IMG/VR virus record: IMGVR_UViG_3300047284_000055
Location: 1-38,938 of that record
Length of the DNA: 38,938 nt
Reading direction: 5' to 3' (one strand)
Source of the DNA: a virus
Under the pieces are notes generated by a model, which ran no database searches, was not told where the DNA came from, and saw nothing but the letters and a program-made list of their open reading frames with translations. Within the stretch, counting starts at the first letter, position 1; every line of letters starts with the position of its first letter. A program made the position numbers and the translations under genes. Positions 368 through 38,233 of the stretch are shown here, piece by piece.

Positions 368-504
368 ATATACCAAACTGTCCGCAGTGCAGTGCAGCAA
401 AACCTGAAGTTATGCGTTACCGAAAAGGCAGTATGAATAGCACAGTCACACTACGCTGTAGAGTTTGCAGTCACGTATTTACCCGTAAGGAGAAGAACAC
501 ATGA
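364..504 (+). CDS. Small zinc-ribbon protein (46 aa)
   Basis: A 46-residue protein has two Cys pairs, CPQC near residue 6 and CRVC near residue 32, separated by about 20 residues, as in a zinc ribbon. The rest is basic and polar, suggesting nucleic-acid or protein binding. It starts inside the stop of the preceding gene and its TGA overlaps the ATG of the exonuclease gene (ATGA at 501), so it is translationally coupled in the recombination operon. It could be an accessory factor of the exonuclease/annealase pair, which is inference only. Confidence 0.7.
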   Translation: MNIPNCPQCSAAKPEVMRYRKGSMNSTVTLRCRVCSHVFTRKEKNT

Positions 505-1277
505 ACACACAAGAGTACGAACGACAAGAAACAGCAGGACTAGATGAAATGCATGGCGCAAAATATTATGACTACGATAGTAGTTATGAAGCAACAAAAC
601 AACGCTATGAAGAAAGTTTTGCAAATGCTTTGGGTGAATACTTAGGGGTAAACATGATGGATACAAGATTGTTAGAACAAGGTAGTGATGAATGGAAAGC
701 AGCGCGGATAGGTCATGTGTCTGCCAGTAACGCAGCAGCAGTAATGAGCAAAACAAAAGAAGGTAAAGAATCTGCTACGCGCAAAGCATACAAGATCAAA
801 CTGGTAGCAGAACGGTTAACAGGACAAGCGCAGGAAACATATAAGAATGCAGCAATGGAATGGGGTAATGAGCAAGAACCGTATGCGCGTATGGCATATG
901 AAGCAATGCAAAATGTATTGGTAGAAAAAACTGGTTTTTGGAAGCATCCAAATAAAAAATGGATTGGTGTATCACCAGATGGTTTAGTTGGTGACGATGG
1001 TTTGATTGAAATCAAATGTCCGAACACGACTACGCATTTGGAATATATTTGGGATGGTGTAGTTCCTACGGAATATCGAAAGCAAATACAAATGCAGTTA
1101 TGGGTGACGGGCAGACAATGGTGCGATTTTGTAAGTTATGATCCGCGACTGCCAGTAAAGAATCAATTGTTCGTGAAGCGTTGTATGCGTGACGAAGATT
1201 TGATATTGGAAATGGAAAATGAAGTAACAAAATTTTTGGGTGAGATAGAAGCAATCATTGATAAACTAGGAGCGTAA
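501..1277 (+). CDS. YqaJ/lambda-exo-type recombination exonuclease
   Basis: The 258-residue protein matches the YqaJ viral recombinase family, which digests one strand of double-stranded DNA ends 5'-3' to expose single strands for annealing. Family signatures visible: GSDEWKAARIGHVSAS (61-76), an Arg-Ser entry motif; WGNEQEP (121-127) with the first acidic residues; SPDG with catalytic D160; and the metal-binding E170-I-K172 of IEIKCP. The first 55 residues are acidic and Tyr-rich and lie outside the core domain; an alternative start at the ATG of position 654 would remove most of them. AAGGAGAAG before 501 supports the longer form. It would partner the ERF protein and SSB encoded on either side across the circular junction. 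Confidence 0.9.
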   Translation: MNTQEYERQETAGLDEMHGAKYYDYDSSYEATKQRYEESFANALGEYLGVNMMDTRLLEQGSDEWKAARIGHVSASNAAAVMSKTKEGKESATRKAYKIKLVAERLTGQAQETYKNAAMEWGNEQEPYARMAYEAMQNVLVEKTGFWKHPNKKWIGVSPDGLVGDDGLIEIKCPNTTTHLEYIWDGVVPTEYRKQIQMQLWVTGRQWCDFVSYDPRLPVKNQLFVKRCMRDEDLILEMENEVTKFLGEIEAIIDKLGA

Positions 1278-1572: not shown

Positions 1573-1992
1573 ATGTCTATAAATAAGTTCATTGGCATCG
1601 GTAATCTTGGTCGTGATCCTGAATATCGCGTTGCGGCATCAGGAAGTAGTGTTGCGAACATAGCGATAGCAATAACCGAAAAATATAGAGATAAGAATGG
1701 CGAGCAAAAAGAAGTAACCGAATGGGTCAATGTAGTTTTCTTTGGGAAACTGGCAGACATTGCTGACCAATATTTGACCAAAGGAATGCAGGTATATGTG
1801 GAAGGAAAATTAAAAACAGAAAAGTATGAGAAAGATGGGGTCACGCGGTACAGCACGAAAGTAGTTGCTGAAAAAATGCAAATGCTTGGTGGTGAGCGCA
1901 AACAGAAACAACAGCGCGATGATGACCAGCACGAACAAATAAATAAACAAACATCGCAGCAAGATGTGTTTGACGATGACATACCGTTCTAG
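1573..1992 (+). CDS. ssb: Single-stranded DNA-binding protein
   Basis: The 139-residue protein begins [18 protein letters not shown], the standard OB-fold start of bacterial and phage SSB. It continues with the [18 protein letters not shown] and [13 protein letters not shown] strands (to about residue 105). A Gln/Asp-rich linker leads to the acidic tip DDDIPF (134-139), the tail that recruits partner proteins. It coats single strands made by the exonuclease and during replication, and protects them until the ERF annealase acts. It is the last gene of the recombination operon; the next 430 bases lack a gene. Confidence 0.95.
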
Positions 1993-1999
1993 TATTCTG

Positions 2000-2190
2000 T
2001 GAAAGCCGAAAGCAACTCGGTCTTCATGGTTGGTCTTTTGGGAGCGATGGCAGTCCTCGGCACGACTAAAAACTACCGTCGGACTCCTCTCCGGCTCCTT
2101 TCGTGGTCATCGCTCCCACCCTTTTTGGAACCGCTTCCTGCTTGATAAACTGTAGTTTGTTGAGGATAGATCAGGTTGCGGTTCCACCAG
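2000..2190 (+). ncRNA. Candidate structured RNA after ssb
   Basis: No convincing ORF lies in 1993-2424, but three strong folds do. Fold 1: 2001-2009 pairs with 2017-2025 (one mismatch). Fold 2: a 12-pair helix 2040-2051/2106-2117 (GGGAGCGATG with CATCGCTCCC) encloses 2052-2056/2081-2085 and 2058-2060/2076-2078. Fold 3: a rod of helix 2126-2134/2178-2186, a symmetric UU/UU loop, helix 2137-2140/2172-2175, a 7-base bulge, and a 10-pair helix 2141-2150/2155-2164 capped by UGUA. Helix 2141-2164 contains three G-U pairs that would be A-C mismatches in the opposite strand, so the transcript would be plus-strand. I know no matching RNA family. A 3' UTR element or a DNA element such as an origin are alternatives. 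Confidence 0.55.
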
Positions 2191-2299
2191 TACAAACCGT
2201 CGAGCGCGTGAGCAGTGCCACCAAAACGCCTCAGTCAATGGCAATACCTAGCCAACGCCTAAATCCCTTTAAATCGCTCCCCGTACCGATTATTTCCGC

Positions 2300-2344: not shown

Positions 2345-2372
2345 TTGCCAACTGTCGCAGTTAAGGCATAAT
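2345..2372 (+). promoter_or_regulatory. Sigma70-type promoter for the 2425 operon
   Basis: TTGCCA (2345-2350), a 16-base spacer and CATAAT (2367-2372) each match the consensus hexamers at five of six positions. Transcription would start near 2379, giving a leader of about 45 bases before the 2425 gene. Nearly the same boxes occur at 38161-38189 and, on the minus strand, at 37808-37780, which supports a shared promoter class. Confidence 0.6.
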
Positions 2373-2408
2373 ACTATTTGCATCACCGTAGTTTACTAAA
2401 TGACAACA

Positions 2409-2418
2409 CACGAAAGGA
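2409..2418 (+). repeat. CACGAAAGGA leader motif, copy 1 of 4
   Basis: The 10-base string CACGAAAGGA carries the ribosome-binding site of four genes: here (gene at 2425), at 3408-3417 (DUF932), at 38220-38229 (ERF) and on the minus strand at 37768-37759 (YdaU). The AAGGA core explains ribosome binding, but the constant CACG prefix exceeds what a Shine-Dalgarno site needs, so a shared leader element is likely. Confidence 0.55.
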
Positions 2419-2424
2419 GTCATC

Positions 2425-3001: not shown

Positions 3002-3287
3002 CAATACTTATCAAAGAACTTTTTGGGCTGATGTGTATGAAATCGATGAGTTGATTAAAACAATGGAGGACATAAGCAGCGATGACAAGCGTCGGCTGGA
3101 AAGTTATACGCATGAAGAAGTAGCGTTGGAAGCAGAGTATGTATTGTCCACATTTTATGAATCTGGTCACATCAACAATAGTTCATACATCGGCGAACAT
3201 GGGGAGGATGAATATCATTGGGCAGTTAACGAAGTAGAGAAATTGAAAGCATTTTTGAAAAAATTTGAAGGACGTAATCGTGCGTAA
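2994..3287 (+). CDS. Hypothetical acidic helical protein (97 aa)
   Basis: I do not recognise this 97-residue protein. It is rich in Glu and Asp and looks mostly helical (DVYEIDELIKTMEDI; VNEVEKLKAFLKKFEG). The start has a strong ACGGAGGTG site inside the previous gene. The C-terminus overlaps the GTG start of the small membrane protein (3280). Acidic small early proteins often bind host proteins, but nothing in this sequence decides its role. Confidence 0.6.
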   Translation: MYNNTYQRTFWADVYEIDELIKTMEDISSDDKRRLESYTHEEVALEAEYVLSTFYESGHINNSSYIGEHGEDEYHWAVNEVEKLKAFLKKFEGRNRA

Positions 3288-3423
3288 CTTCATATCCATA
3301 TTTCTATCCATGGCGTTTGCCGCATGGCTCGGTGCTGTGTTGGCATTCGCAATGATGGACACCAATTTCACCGAATGGTTCGGTGAATTCCAGCAGTACT
3401 ACTTCCACACGAAAGGAAATTAA
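3280..3423 (+). CDS. Small membrane protein with GTG start (47 aa)
   Basis: From the GTG at 3280 the frame encodes 47 residues: a short basic N-terminus, one hydrophobic helix (about residues 4-26: FISIFLSMAFAAWLGAVLAF) and an aromatic tail (FTEWFGEFQQYYF). GAAGGA lies at suitable distance before the GTG. It fills the gap between the 2994 gene and DUF932 exactly and ends with the ribosome-binding site of DUF932 inside its last codons. It is likely an inner-membrane peptide; possible roles such as superinfection exclusion are guesses. Confidence 0.55.
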   Translation: MRNFISIFLSMAFAAWLGAVLAFAMMDTNFTEWFGEFQQYYFHTKGN

Positions 3424-3425
3424 TC

Positions 3426-4394
3426 ATGGCACATCAAATCACTATTCGCGCTGACGGTTTTGCTGAAATGGCATTCGTTGGTGACACTCCTTGGCATGGT
3501 CTTGGTCAGGAACTCGACCCAAATGCTGGTATGGATGCGTGGCGTAAAGCAGCAGGAATGGATTGGACAATAGAATCTACTCCAGTTACTTATGCACCAA
3601 ACAATTATGATGCAATCACGTTTCCAGAGCGTTTTGTACAGTATCGTAGTGACACGCTGGCTCCGTTGAGCGTGGTGTCAGCGCGTTACAAACCAGTGCA
3701 GCCTAGCCAAGTATTAGAATTCTTCCATGAACTAGCGCAGGAACACGGATTCAAATTGCACACTGCTGGCACGTTGTTTGGTGGCAAACGTCTGTGGGCA
3801 TTGGCTGAAACCGGCAAGTTTGCGGAAGTGAGCAAGGATGATGGTATAGGTGGCTTCCTGCTTCTATCTACGTCATGCGATAAATCATTGGCAACTACAG
3901 CGCGGTTTACCAGTGTCCGCGTTGTTTGCAATAATACTTTGAGTTTCGCTACGCAAAGCAGCGATTACGTTTCCTTCACTCACCTGACACAGTGGGATAG
4001 TTCCAAGATGCATGATCGTATCGCGCAGCAGGTGGAATCATTTGGCGCATTCATGGAAATGGCGAAACATTTAAAGAAACAGAAATGTGATGCAGCCGCA
4101 GCACAAGAATTCCTAAAGCAGATTCTATTCACGCCGAAGGAACTGCAAACGCTTGAGCCAACCAGTATTGAAAAATACCGTCCGTATAACCGCATCTTGG
4201 AATTGTTTTATGGGGAGGCTAAAGGGTGGCAATTAGATGGTGTTAGGGGGACTAAATGGGGGCTATTGAATTCGATTACCGAATACTTAGACCATCATTC
4301 ACCTGCACGTTCCGATGATGCGCGATTAAATTCCGCTTGGTTCGGTGGTGGCGATGCAATTAAATCGAAAGCAGTGGAGTTACTTGCCGCTTGA
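3426..4394 (+). CDS. DUF932 (phage/plasmid TIGR03299-type) protein
   Basis: The 322-residue protein matches the DUF932 family found in phages and plasmids. It shows AFVGDTPWHGLGQEL near the start, VVSARYKPVQPSQVLEFF and LFGGKRLWALAETG in the middle, and TSVRVVCNNTLSFA before a helical C-terminal half. The length is typical. The biochemical function is unknown; members lie among early replication and recombination genes, as here. The CACGAAAGGA leader precedes the ATG. Its stop codon overlaps the TTGACA-like box at 4391 and a terminator follows 28 bases later, so this gene closes the 2425 transcription unit. Confidence 0.88.
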   Translation: MAHQITIRADGFAEMAFVGDTPWHGLGQELDPNAGMDAWRKAAGMDWTIESTPVTYAPNNYDAITFPERFVQYRSDTLAPLSVVSARYKPVQPSQVLEFFHELAQEHGFKLHTAGTLFGGKRLWALAETGKFAEVSKDDGIGGFLLLSTSCDKSLATTARFTSVRVVCNNTLSFATQSSDYVSFTHLTQWDSSKMHDRIAQQVESFGAFMEMAKHLKKQKCDAAAAQEFLKQILFTPKELQTLEPTSIEKYRPYNRILELFYGEAKGWQLDGVRGTKWGLLNSITEYLDHHSPARSDDARLNSAWFGGGDAIKSKAVELLAA

Positions 4395-4437: not shown

Positions 4438-4449
4438 GGGGGATTTTTT
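4422..4449 (+). terminator. Intrinsic terminator before the winged-helix gene
   Basis: A perfect 7-pair stem, CCCCCGA (4422-4428) with TCGGGGG (4436-4442), has a 7-base loop and is followed by ATTTTTT. This is a textbook rho-independent terminator ending the DUF932 unit. The T-run directly abuts the ATG at 4450, and the G-rich right arm occupies the position where a Shine-Dalgarno site would lie. Confidence 0.85.
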
Positions 4450-4707
4450 ATGCCTAACGCCAGCAGCACACTAATGACGATTTTCCGTGAGTCTAGTGAG
4501 CCTTTAACGATGCATGAATTGTTACCAATGGCTGAATCATTGAAAAAGAATGAAATTTCAATGGCACTTTGTTACCTGCTAAAGCAAGGATATTTGTCAC
4601 GAGAAAAAGTAGAGCGTCGCGGTACTCGCGGACGCAAAGAAATATGGTTGTACACATTTCATGCTGATCGTCAAAAGGAACAACACAATGAACCAAATGC
4701 AAATTGA
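4450..4707 (+). CDS. Winged-helix DNA-binding protein
   Basis: The 85-residue protein has a winged helix-turn-helix pattern: TMHELLPMAESLKKNEISMALCYLLKQGYL forms helices 2-3, and REKVERRGTRGRKEIWLYTF the basic wing. It resembles small phage or MarR-like regulators. I chose the ATG at 4450 because the frame upstream runs through the terminator stem. No separate Shine-Dalgarno site exists; the terminator arm CGGGGGA, six T residues away, may serve. The end overlaps the ParB-like start (4688). It is the best candidate for a transcription regulator in the window and may act on the TAATACT repeats next to its own start. Confidence 0.7.
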   Translation: MPNASSTLMTIFRESSEPLTMHELLPMAESLKKNEISMALCYLLKQGYLSREKVERRGTRGRKEIWLYTFHADRQKEQHNEPNAN

Positions 4708-5293
4708 ATATAAACCTACTGCTGACCTAATACCATACGCAAGAAATAGTAGGACGCATACAGACGCACAAATCAATCAAATTGCTGCGTCTATCCGTGA
4801 ATTTGGTTTCCGTGTGCCAGTGTTAGTAACTGGTGACAACACGATCATTGCCGGTCATGGTCGCGTACTGGCTGCGTTGAAACTTGGTATTGATGAAATA
4901 CCTACAGTAGATGGTAGTGATATGGATGACATACAGCGCAGGATGTACGTCATCGCTGATAACAAAATCGCACTGAATGCAGGATGGGATGAAGAAGTAT
5001 TAATGCTAGAAATTGAAGATTTGCGTAGTCTTGGTGCGGATATTGAATTGCTCGCATTTGATCCTTCAGAAATTAAAAAGAACGACATTGATTATTCAGT
5101 ATTAGATGACCACAACATTGATGACCAAATTGATGACATGGCGAAAGGTGTCCGCAAAGCAATACAAATTGAATTTGAGGTAGATCATTATGACGAAGCA
5201 TTTGAACTGGTGAAGTATTGGCGTGATGAAGGCGCATATGTGGGATACATGATTATGGATTTCCTTCGCAAAGAAAAAGCGAAAGTGCAATGA
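4688..5293 (+). CDS. ParB-like N-terminal domain protein
   Basis: From the ATG at 4688 (AAGGA eight bases upstream) the protein has 201 residues. Residues 8-130 form a ParB/sulfiredoxin-type domain: DLIPYARNSRTHTDAQINQIAASI, FRVPVLVTGDNTIIAGHGRVLAALKLG with the box GHGRVLAA (56-63), and MYVIADNKIALNAGWDEE. In many phages this domain is fused to a DNA methylase; here no methylase follows, and the C-terminus is a 70-residue acidic and aromatic tail. The stop overlaps the glycosyltransferase start (ATGA), so it belongs to the predicted DNA-modification operon. Nuclease, NTPase or targeting activity are all possible for the fold. Confidence 0.82.
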   Translation: MNQMQIEYKPTADLIPYARNSRTHTDAQINQIAASIREFGFRVPVLVTGDNTIIAGHGRVLAALKLGIDEIPTVDGSDMDDIQRRMYVIADNKIALNAGWDEEVLMLEIEDLRSLGADIELLAFDPSEIKKNDIDYSVLDDHNIDDQIDDMAKGVRKAIQIEFEVDHYDEAFELVKYWRDEGAYVGYMIMDFLRKEKAKVQ

Positions 5294-6120
5294 AGGTATT
5301 TACCTTCTTTTATAACCGATTTGAAAACGCTTCAACGTCTATCGCGTTGGAAGCAAACAGCATTCCTCATTATGTGTTGATTCATAAACCAGAAGATCAC
5401 GATAAATTTCGTCGGCATAATACCTGTCGTGGTACAGCAGTAGTAACAAATAATGGCAAAGGATTGGCATACCAGCGGAATAGCGCACTAGACATGATGA
5501 ACACTGGCGAGTGGGCAGTTTTCATGTGCGATGATTTTATGAAAATAAAAAGTATGCCGGAGGAATGGATACTTAGTGGCAATCAAGAATTGCCGATTAA
5601 CTTTGCTAACCAAAATAAATTTAGGCTGAAGGAAAATGGATTTACGCTAAAAAAAATGTTTGCGTTGTTTCCGCGGTTGATAGAACTGGCTGAACGTAAT
5701 CACATTCATTTGGTTGGATTTGGTTTGCACGACAATCCTATGAATCTGCGAAAAAAATTTAATCATCGTGGATTGGCTGATGGACGGTTCTGGTTGGTAA
5801 AAAAAGCAGGATACAAATTTGATACCAACGCGCAGTTAATTGATGATGTGGCGTGGACAGCAGAAAATTTAGTGCGTCACCGAAACGTTCTGGTACTTAA
5901 TTGGTTAGTTCCTTATTTCCAGCGTTATACAGCAGGAGGGTTCGGCAGCACTGCGGAACGTCTGGCTTTGCGTCGTAAAGAATGTGCTTATCTTGCCAAC
6001 AAATACAATCCATTGGTAAAGATCGCTCAGAAACCTGGATGGGAAAGCGGAACTCACATTCGTTTGTTTGGAACTGATAAAAATATCGAAATCGTAAGAA
6101 AGCGGAACGGATTGCTATGA
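5290..6120 (+). CDS. Glycosyltransferase, TET-associated (TAGT) type
   Basis: The 276-residue protein looks like a GT-A-type glycosyltransferase: MKVFTFFYNRF and an IPHYVLIH strand, then NGKGLAYQRNSALD (55-68) and the acidic metal and nucleotide-sugar site FMCDDF (78-83). A second half has GLADGRFWLVKKAGYKFD and DDVAW. This pattern fits the TET/JBP-associated glycosyltransferases described from phage gene neighbourhoods, and it overlaps a TET/JBP-type oxygenase by four bases (6117). The predicted job is transfer of a sugar to hydroxymethylated bases in phage DNA. A glycosyltransferase acting on another acceptor remains possible. There is no signal peptide or membrane segment, so it should be cytoplasmic. 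Confidence 0.72.
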   Translation: MKVFTFFYNRFENASTSIALEANSIPHYVLIHKPEDHDKFRRHNTCRGTAVVTNNGKGLAYQRNSALDMMNTGEWAVFMCDDFMKIKSMPEEWILSGNQELPINFANQNKFRLKENGFTLKKMFALFPRLIELAERNHIHLVGFGLHDNPMNLRKKFNHRGLADGRFWLVKKAGYKFDTNAQLIDDVAWTAENLVRHRNVLVLNWLVPYFQRYTAGGFGSTAERLALRRKECAYLANKYNPLVKIAQKPGWESGTHIRLFGTDKNIEIVRKRNGLL

Positions 6121-6890
6121 AAACATTGGAATTAGTGTTGCAACCGCATAACGTGAAGATTGGCGATGTAACGCCAGACTACGAACCAAATATTACTGAG
6201 GATACGCTTTTTGTGTCCGATGGAGAGGTAGTTGGTTTTTATTTAAAGCAAATTCCTGAAAGCGTACGGAAGTATGTAGAAATAGCAAATGCAGAACTGT
6301 TAAGTGATAGAGTTCCTAAATCAGAAATGCGTAGATCAAGCGGATTACGCAATGAAGAAGCAGAGGTAAGGCAATATTCAACGATTATTGGCTCATGTGC
6401 GCCTAAACCGCATATGAAGCGTCCTTATCCAGCGATTTCTAGTGTCCATAATGTCAAATCAGCGCAAACATTTATCAAAGCGATGCTCCTCGCCTGTCAT
6501 GAGTCCGAGAATCTCATTCGAGAAATCGCGCCATCGGTTTTCGAGCGGCAGGAAAAAATTATCAATGAGAAGGTTCCACCAAAATGGCGATTCGGTAGAT
6601 TGTTCACCAGCAGCATTTCCAATTTCAACATTGCAGCAAACTATCATCGAGACGCAGGGAATCTGGAAGGATGTGCCAATGTCATCATCGCCAAAAAATC
6701 TCACGCTCGGGGAGGTAATACTACGATTCCTGACTATTCCGCTACTGTTGACAGTGCCGATAATTCGATGCTTGTATATCCTGCTTGGAGGAATGTACAT
6801 GGTGTTACGCCAATTGTTCCTTTGCGTGAAGATGGTTATCGCAATTCTTTGGTCTTTTATCCGTTGAAAGCGTTTACCGCGTATGAGTGA
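6117..6890 (+). CDS. TET/JBP-type 2-oxoglutarate Fe(II) dioxygenase
   Basis: The 257-residue protein has the iron-binding pattern of TET/JBP oxygenases: H177-R-D179 in NYHRDAGN, H228 in RNVHGV, and R242 in GYRNSLVFY for 2-oxoglutarate. Between them lie ANVIIAKKSHARGG and ADNSMLVYPAW, matching strands of the double-stranded beta-helix. Phage members oxidise the 5-methyl group of 5-methylcytosine, and JBP members that of thymine. Residues 1-100 are a poorly conserved N-terminal region. It overlaps the glycosyltransferase upstream and the Cys-rich gene downstream by a few bases, so one operon. I see no cytosine-5 methyltransferase gene in the window, so the substrate base is open. Confidence 0.82.
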   Translation: MKTLELVLQPHNVKIGDVTPDYEPNITEDTLFVSDGEVVGFYLKQIPESVRKYVEIANAELLSDRVPKSEMRRSSGLRNEEAEVRQYSTIIGSCAPKPHMKRPYPAISSVHNVKSAQTFIKAMLLACHESENLIREIAPSVFERQEKIINEKVPPKWRFGRLFTSSISNFNIAANYHRDAGNLEGCANVIIAKKSHARGGNTTIPDYSATVDSADNSMLVYPAWRNVHGVTPIVPLREDGYRNSLVFYPLKAFTAYE

Positions 6891-36249: not shown

Positions 36250-36466
36250 TAAGCATTCTCCTTTTCGTGTCTTTTGTGGCATAGATACTGATACTTGTTT
36301 TGTCTATGCAATTCTTGCAACTCCATCCTCTGCTTGAATTTGGTTTCTTATATCCTCCTTCTATTGGTTGATGTCGTTGGCAGGAAGTACAGAATCTTTT
36401 GCCTTCATTCTTTAACAAATACTCCTGAACTGTTGAGATACCCTTTCCTATCTTTAATTTCATCAT
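36209..36466 (-). CDS. Zinc-finger-like small protein
   Basis: The protein (up to 85 residues) has CTSCQRHQPIEGG and GWSCKNC about 20 residues apart, a treble-clef or zinc-ribbon-type site. The start is uncertain. The ATG at 36466 overlaps the MazG-like gene by 62 bases, whereas a TTG at 36418 would start at LLKNEGKRF with AGGAG only three bases away. The C-terminus is basic. Its role is unknown; such small zinc proteins often bind DNA or replication enzymes. Confidence 0.62.
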   Translation of the reverse strand: MMKLKIGKGISTVQEYLLKNEGKRFCTSCQRHQPIEGGYKKPNSSRGWSCKNCIDKTSISIYATKDTKRRMLNVQATRTDNERKS

Positions 36467-37753: not shown

Positions 37754-37779
37754 ATGCCTCCTTTCGTGATGACGAGCGA

Positions 37780-38210: not shown

Positions 38211-38233
38211 TACACACGACACGAAAGGATAGT

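Follow-up and report, generated by a model that had tools for sequence, protein, structure and literature searches.

A covarying RNA family downstream of phage ssb genes, probably an antisense repressor of a repeated ribosome-binding leader

Introduction

The c4 antisense RNA of phages P1 and P7 (RF01695) is a small structured RNA whose complementary stretches, probably held in loops, pair around the ribosome-binding site of ant and block its translation (PMC12197685). The sar RNA of P22 also pairs with the ant mRNA and interferes with translation initiation (PMC12197685). VpdS and PreS (lambda) are Hfq-dependent trans-acting phage sRNAs; PreS acts on host genes, and VpdS affects several RNAs, acting on host sRNAs and on host and phage mRNA levels (PMC12197685). 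At the protein level, T4 encodes the repressor RegA, which acts on many early and middle phage mRNAs, at the AUG or immediately 5' of it, and whose gene belongs to the replication gene cluster (PMC3014915).

The locus described here is the region directly 3' of ssb in IMG/VR virus record IMGVR_UViG_3300047284_000055, the whole of which (38,938 nucleotides) was analyzed and is called the window. Like c4, it would encode a structured phage RNA, in which an unpaired stretch (2096-2105) complements a phage ribosome-binding site. It differs in position, following ssb, and in its identified targets, which are genes for an ERF protein, a DUF1376 replication protein and a DUF932 protein rather than ant. 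The c4 RNA has been described with one target, the ant mRNA, as has sar, whereas here a single stretch faces four to five dispersed leaders on both strands. Neither the window nor the relatives scanned matched the RF01695 model, and membership of the c4 family is ruled out by covariance model and target alike. Trans action is shared with VpdS and PreS, although a dedicated repeated leader is not described for either in PMC12197685. With RegA the likeness is one of scope, many early phage genes, and of action at the start of translation; RegA, however, is a protein with loose A+U-rich sites, whereas the repressor proposed here is an RNA with an exact complementary site. The phage antisense RNAs treated in PMC12197685 mostly have one phage mRNA or host targets, whereas an RNA-run regulon within the virus is predicted here.

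A folded RNA family downstream of ssb

An earlier note on this DNA had described a candidate for a large folded RNA directly 3' of ssb, made up of two long helices and a smaller hairpin. Folding of window 2000-2200 (+) bears this out: the predicted energy is -76.8 kcal/mol against -56.6 ± 4.4 kcal/mol for shuffled sequences (z -4.6, 0 of 200 as low), and the long helix, the rod and the 5' hairpin are all predicted (Table 1). The long helix, previously counted as 12 pairs at 2040-2117, is predicted with 13 and encloses two inner hairpins and a single strand in a layout termed domain 1. A hairpin similar to the 5' one occurs in relative L001 with one apparent C-G to G-C change, judged by eye.

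The starting set for comparison was 48 IMG/VR loci fetched as SSB relatives, among which the stretch 3' of ssb is often conserved. Further loci were added by two pattern scans on the RNA core, and the resulting alignment A2 holds 29 distinct copies, the window included. Covariation among aligned relatives, on which the earlier note had made its proposal depend, was looked for and found in the outer helix. Eight of its nine core pairs carry double-sided changes in A2 and none is broken, while nine of ten pairs called by RNAalifold change on both sides; the covariation score is 0.685, compared with 0.22 after shuffling (0/500) and no more than 0.21 when partners are slid. Since pattern-found rows were retained only if the arms were present, pairing was recounted for the 21 rows that SSB homology by itself had brought in, where all outer-helix cells (189/189) are paired with the same compensating changes. 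Both-sided changes also occur in helix 3 (inner hairpin 1), with 75.9% of cells paired owing to a one-position offset in register. The folded RNA at 2039-2122 is real, and the earlier suggestion of a new plus-strand phage noncoding RNA is strongly supported by this covariation.

Domain 1 (84 nt, + strand) is an RNA family absent from Rfam 15. No Rfam family was matched at gathering score by the window RNA or by the relatives scanned, and a search of 1980-2430 up to E 10 returned a chance match only, c4 not being among the results. At least 30 distinct relatives carry the family, each record with a single copy that is almost always directly 3' of ssb, the RNA starting 9-880 nt downstream of the SSB match; L080 has a different small gene, likewise with the DIPF end, in the place of ssb, and retains the RNA. 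Covariance model R1 matches the window at 70.8 bits (E 3.5e-12), the window being one of its 29 sequences, and yields a single copy in each contig, among them L083/L084 and L085, none of which was used in training. On whole records it gives a single copy in 10 of 14, the other four being relatives without the RNA. CCUUUCG is the only invariant primary sequence in A2, and some phages have one more U in it.

Searches further afield returned little. Cultured phages gave no DNA similarity to 1980-2430, and R1 found nothing in the SSB regions of three cultured phages with related SSBs, Manatee Spring podovirus, Xanthomonas phage PBR31 and Burkholderia phage DC1. In bacterial genomes the core-motif pattern had seven matches, none upheld by the covariance-model search (one at chance level, 13 bits, E 1.9). 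Pattern matches L050-L052, L061-L063, L065-L067 and L073 lack the stem and are attributed to chance. No earlier description of this RNA was found in open-access papers, a coverage outside which most subscription papers and preprints fall.

The idea of a tRNA mimic did not survive. ARAGORN reported no tRNA or tmRNA gene in the window region, a T-arm is absent, and the A-CCA after the rod, formerly read as an acceptor-like end, is not conserved, with L001 and L002/L003 having GGTTCCTTCC there. The ARAGORN result and the non-conserved ACCA rule out a tRNA or tRNA-like identity (cloverleaf, T-arm, CCA end).

Table 1. Features of the RNA locus and its putative targets, in window coordinates.
Feature	Position	Strand	Evidence
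YqaJ/RecE-like exonuclease, same operon	501..1277	+	protein-family match
ssb, gene immediately upstream of RNA	1573..1992	+	Pfam SSB 5.6e-34
Possible ncRNA promoter, TTGACG-17-TATTCT	1970..1998	+	9/12 matches; weakly supported in relatives
5' hairpin, between ssb and domain 1	2001..2026	+	fold
ncRNA domain 1, core of new RNA family	2039..2122	+	CM R1 match; covariation in alignment A2
Outer helix 5' arm, pairs with 2106-2118	2039..2051	+	fold; covariation
Inner hairpin 1, then conserved UAAAAACURC	2052..2067	+	fold; alignment A2; helix 3 both-sided changes
Inner hairpin 2, variable	2078..2095	+	fold
Antisense stretch UCCUUUCGUG, predicted unpaired	2096..2105	+	family-invariant core CCTTTCG; unpaired probability
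Outer helix 3' arm, then conserved ACC(C)	2106..2118	+	fold; alignment; covariation
Rod (second long hairpin), clade-specific	2126..2186	+	fold; besides window only L001, L002/L003
Promoter-like site of downstream gene, TTGCCA-16-CATAAT	2345..2372	+	10/12 matches
Target leader CACGAAAGGA of gene 2425-2673 (82 aa, first gene after ncRNA)	2409..2418	+	duplex -25.1 kcal/mol, strongest of 156 ORF starts
Target leader of DUF932 gene 3426-4394	3408..3417	+	10-mer match; duplex -16.7 kcal/mol
Weaker possible target CGAAAAGG (4 A, not 3), ATG ~36249	36260..36267	-	within longer ORF, start site uncertain
Target leader of DUF1376/primosomal replication gene 37753-37082	37759..37768	-	duplex -23.5 kcal/mol, second of 156 ORF starts
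Target leader of ERF ssDNA-annealing protein gene (start 38234)	38220..38229	+	10-mer match

The exposed stretch matches a repeated leader

The earlier reading had named no target, and one is now apparent: the conserved single strand of the RNA complements a ribosome-binding leader repeated in the same phage. The stretch UCCUUUCGUG is the exact reverse complement of CACGAAAGGA, which occurs five times in the 38.9-kb window, self site included, where 0.06 would be expected. Each of the four other copies lies 5-9 nt upstream of an ATG and overlaps or contains the Shine-Dalgarno. The stretch has a mean unpaired probability of 0.89 in the window, and over 30 relatives the motif averages 0.68 vs 0.39 for the rest of the RNA; in the predicted ensembles of L054, L016 and L085 it is only about 45% unpaired, a point against. 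When 9-mers were scanned along the RNA in these 30 relatives, complementary sites upstream of an ATG numbered 3.8 per genome at CCUUUCG and near zero elsewhere, and about 98% of the sites complementary to this position precede an ATG. A count blind to the RNA agrees: the commonest 9-mer before ATGs is the motif complement in the window and in L042. The RNA thus has what is expected of a trans-acting base-pairing sRNA, a conserved stretch that is predicted to be accessible and complements several mRNAs where translation starts. A U-run of the kind looked for in Hfq-dependent sRNAs follows the stem in some members, the window among them, and is absent from others (L016, L019).

RNA and leader change together across relatives. 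RNAs with UUU occur with CGAAAGG leaders and those with UUUU with CGAAAAGG leaders, and the A-run length of a leader equals the U-run of its own phage's RNA in 129 of 144 cases (permuted mean 86.0, p 5e-5, the contigs being related). Three run-length changes are needed on the SSB tree and the leaders follow each. Because the contigs are related and only two independent pairs lie on well supported branches, too few for a significant independent-pairs test, phylogenetically independent replication of the co-change is small. In L042 (UCGA type) and L010 (AACG type) the leaders fit their own RNAs beyond run length.

The two also occur together. All ssb-fetched contigs with the RNA have leaders (35/35), while the CACGAAA(A)GG leader before an ATG is found in none of the 12 untruncated ssb-fetched contigs without it; a looser CGAAA(A)GG site occurs once in each of two of these 12 (the distant L047 and L048). 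A leader is also present in L035, the sequence of which ends just after ssb. The whole-record pattern CGAAANGGA... counts the 4-A class only and was left out for 3-A phages. Leaders stand before genes of about 65 clusters without detectable mutual homology, which means that they were not inherited with a single gene start.

Targets and proposed role

The next gene downstream and the DUF1376 gene give the strongest predicted duplexes of all window ORF starts (Table 1). The DUF932 leader ranks only ninth, and predicted duplexes are also strong at several starts that lack the leader; the regulon is therefore not defined by pairing energy alone. Leader-bearing genes other than those for ERF, DUF1376 and DUF932 are small and without assignment. 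The genes for ERF, the YqaJ/RecE-like exonuclease and ssb, followed by the RNA, appear to form one operon across the ends of the record, a contiguity seen in L001; ERF is the first gene of the operon whose end is this RNA. The leader of the gene just downstream (window 2402-2421 and equivalents in L001, L003 and L083) apparently sits in the loop of a small hairpin with arms TGAC...GTCA (TGAT...ATCA in L083), an arrangement that might expose the target to a loop-type contact. Elsewhere in the window (4661-6890), ParB-like, glucosyltransferase-like and queuine tRNA-ribosyltransferase-like genes stand in a row, suggesting DNA base modification.

What would such an RNA do? Structure, repeated leaders, the match between them and their co-change in relatives are all properties of the sequences, and on these grounds we regard window 2039-2122 as the likely core of an antisense RNA, encoded by the phage and acting in trans, by which the translation of a set of phage early genes would be blocked. 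The RNA, whose transcription we infer, would come from the 3' end of the ERF-exonuclease-ssb operon, through processing of the operon transcript or by initiation at a promoter located where ssb ends. Its covarying stem would display UCCUUUCGUG unpaired, and in cells this would presumably pair with the CACGAAAGGA leader that holds the Shine-Dalgarno of several phage genes. With the Shine-Dalgarno masked, 30S subunits could not bind and less of the targets would be translated; in the window these would be the DUF932 gene, the gene that directly follows the RNA, the DUF1376 replication gene, which is divergent, and ERF, which heads the operon that the RNA ends. Repression is the effect expected of pairing over the Shine-Dalgarno, activation or mRNA stabilization being formally conceivable alternatives.

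The RNA is thus very probably, judging from its complementarity, a built-in switch that turns down a set of the phage's own genes together. Its effect may be a negative feedback, presumably delayed, that ends the early replication and recombination programme, or else the early programme may be held down in already infected or lysogenic cells. By analogy with P1 c4, a role in immunity is possible; among the subset of window proteins scanned, no integrase or phage repressor was matched in PHROGs. A broader proposal, to which we give an even chance, is that one RNA acts as master repressor of a leader regulon, an RNA counterpart of T4 RegA, in which unrelated genes have gained leaders independently, RNA and leaders co-evolve, and the whole serves as an addressable off-switch or in superinfection immunity. 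A function is thereby proposed for the folded structure, with a prediction of which genes go off together. A common leader would mark the targets, and the co-change of RNA and target is visible across dozens of uncultured phages. Targets of a regulatory RNA thereby become readable from metagenomic phage contigs alone; the RNA and its leader also offer a portable, testable pair.

Alternative explanations

The RNA lies directly upstream of a leader-bearing gene with a promoter-like site between the two, and could instead be a cis element that sequesters the Shine-Dalgarno of gene 2425 in ssb read-through transcripts, leaving only transcripts from the gene's own promoter to be translated. This is unlikely, given that further leaders are found at 3408 and 38220 and, on the opposite strand, at 37759, beyond cis reach or on other transcripts, and that the predicted fold of 2000-2440 leaves the RNA stretch and the leader unpaired with each other; cis-only pairing with the next gene was discarded on that absence. 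Its position at the end of the operon, and the U-run that follows the stem in several members (CCCUUUUU in the window), would suit a 3'-end structure of the ssb operon, a terminator or transcript protector, with the leader match a by-product of C/U-rich sequence like the 16S tail. We think this quite improbable: invariance is limited to the CCUUUCG stretch, which tracks the leaders in run length and flanking bases, and many members lack the U-run (such as L016 and L019) or have a separate terminator, none being called at the window site.

The stretch CUCCUUUC resembles the 16S rRNA 3' end of many proteobacteria, and on the strength of this likeness the RNA might act on host mRNAs or ribosomes by mimicking the 16S 3' tail, phage leaders being secondary. 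There is little to commend this account, however, as the adjoining GUG, which is outside the Shine-Dalgarno complement, also matches the phage leaders, and in L042 and L010 the flanking bases vary with these leaders. That the 10-mer occurs on both strands would also accord with a DNA site for a protein, the ncRNA copy being one more site on the opposite strand. Such a reading is extremely unlikely: almost every copy includes the Shine-Dalgarno and stands 5-10 nt ahead of an ATG, and the ncRNA copy is reversed in 30 of 30 relatives and sits inside an RNA-type covarying stem. An antisense RNA acting in trans on the leaders is the preferred explanation.

Promoters, rod and other RNAs of the region

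A promoter of the RNA's own at 1970-1998 is plausible from the sequence. Promoter matches over the relatives average 7.4/12 vs 6.8 after shuffling, and no strong promoter is common to all. Several RNA copies begin 9 nt after the SSB match, which fits processing of the operon transcript.

Both helices, treated in the earlier note as one RNA, are predicted, but their histories differ, domain 1 being widespread and the rod confined to the closest relatives of the window. In L001 and L002/L003 base changes in the rod preserve pairing, as judged by eye, and CCTGCTTGA...GGATAG(A/G)TC(A/G)GG is conserved; other relatives have U-tract terminators or nothing in its place. The rod is an accessory 3' element, a clade-specific add-on and no tRNA mimic.

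In L036 and L011 the interval between ssb and the RNA contains hairpins that have a further exposed C/U-rich stretch, CTCCTTCAC, in their loop. Three SSB relatives without the domain 1 RNA and leaders (L014 at ~4085-4160, L017 at ~6597-6672 and L043 at ~4440-4513) have another conserved stretch in the same position after ssb, GGGGGAAAGCGGATG...GCGAGTACCCC, with a variable inner stem, and this may be another unassigned RNA. L017, which lacks the new RNA, also carries the Rfam int-alpA RNA (RF02996) at 3107-3181 (-).
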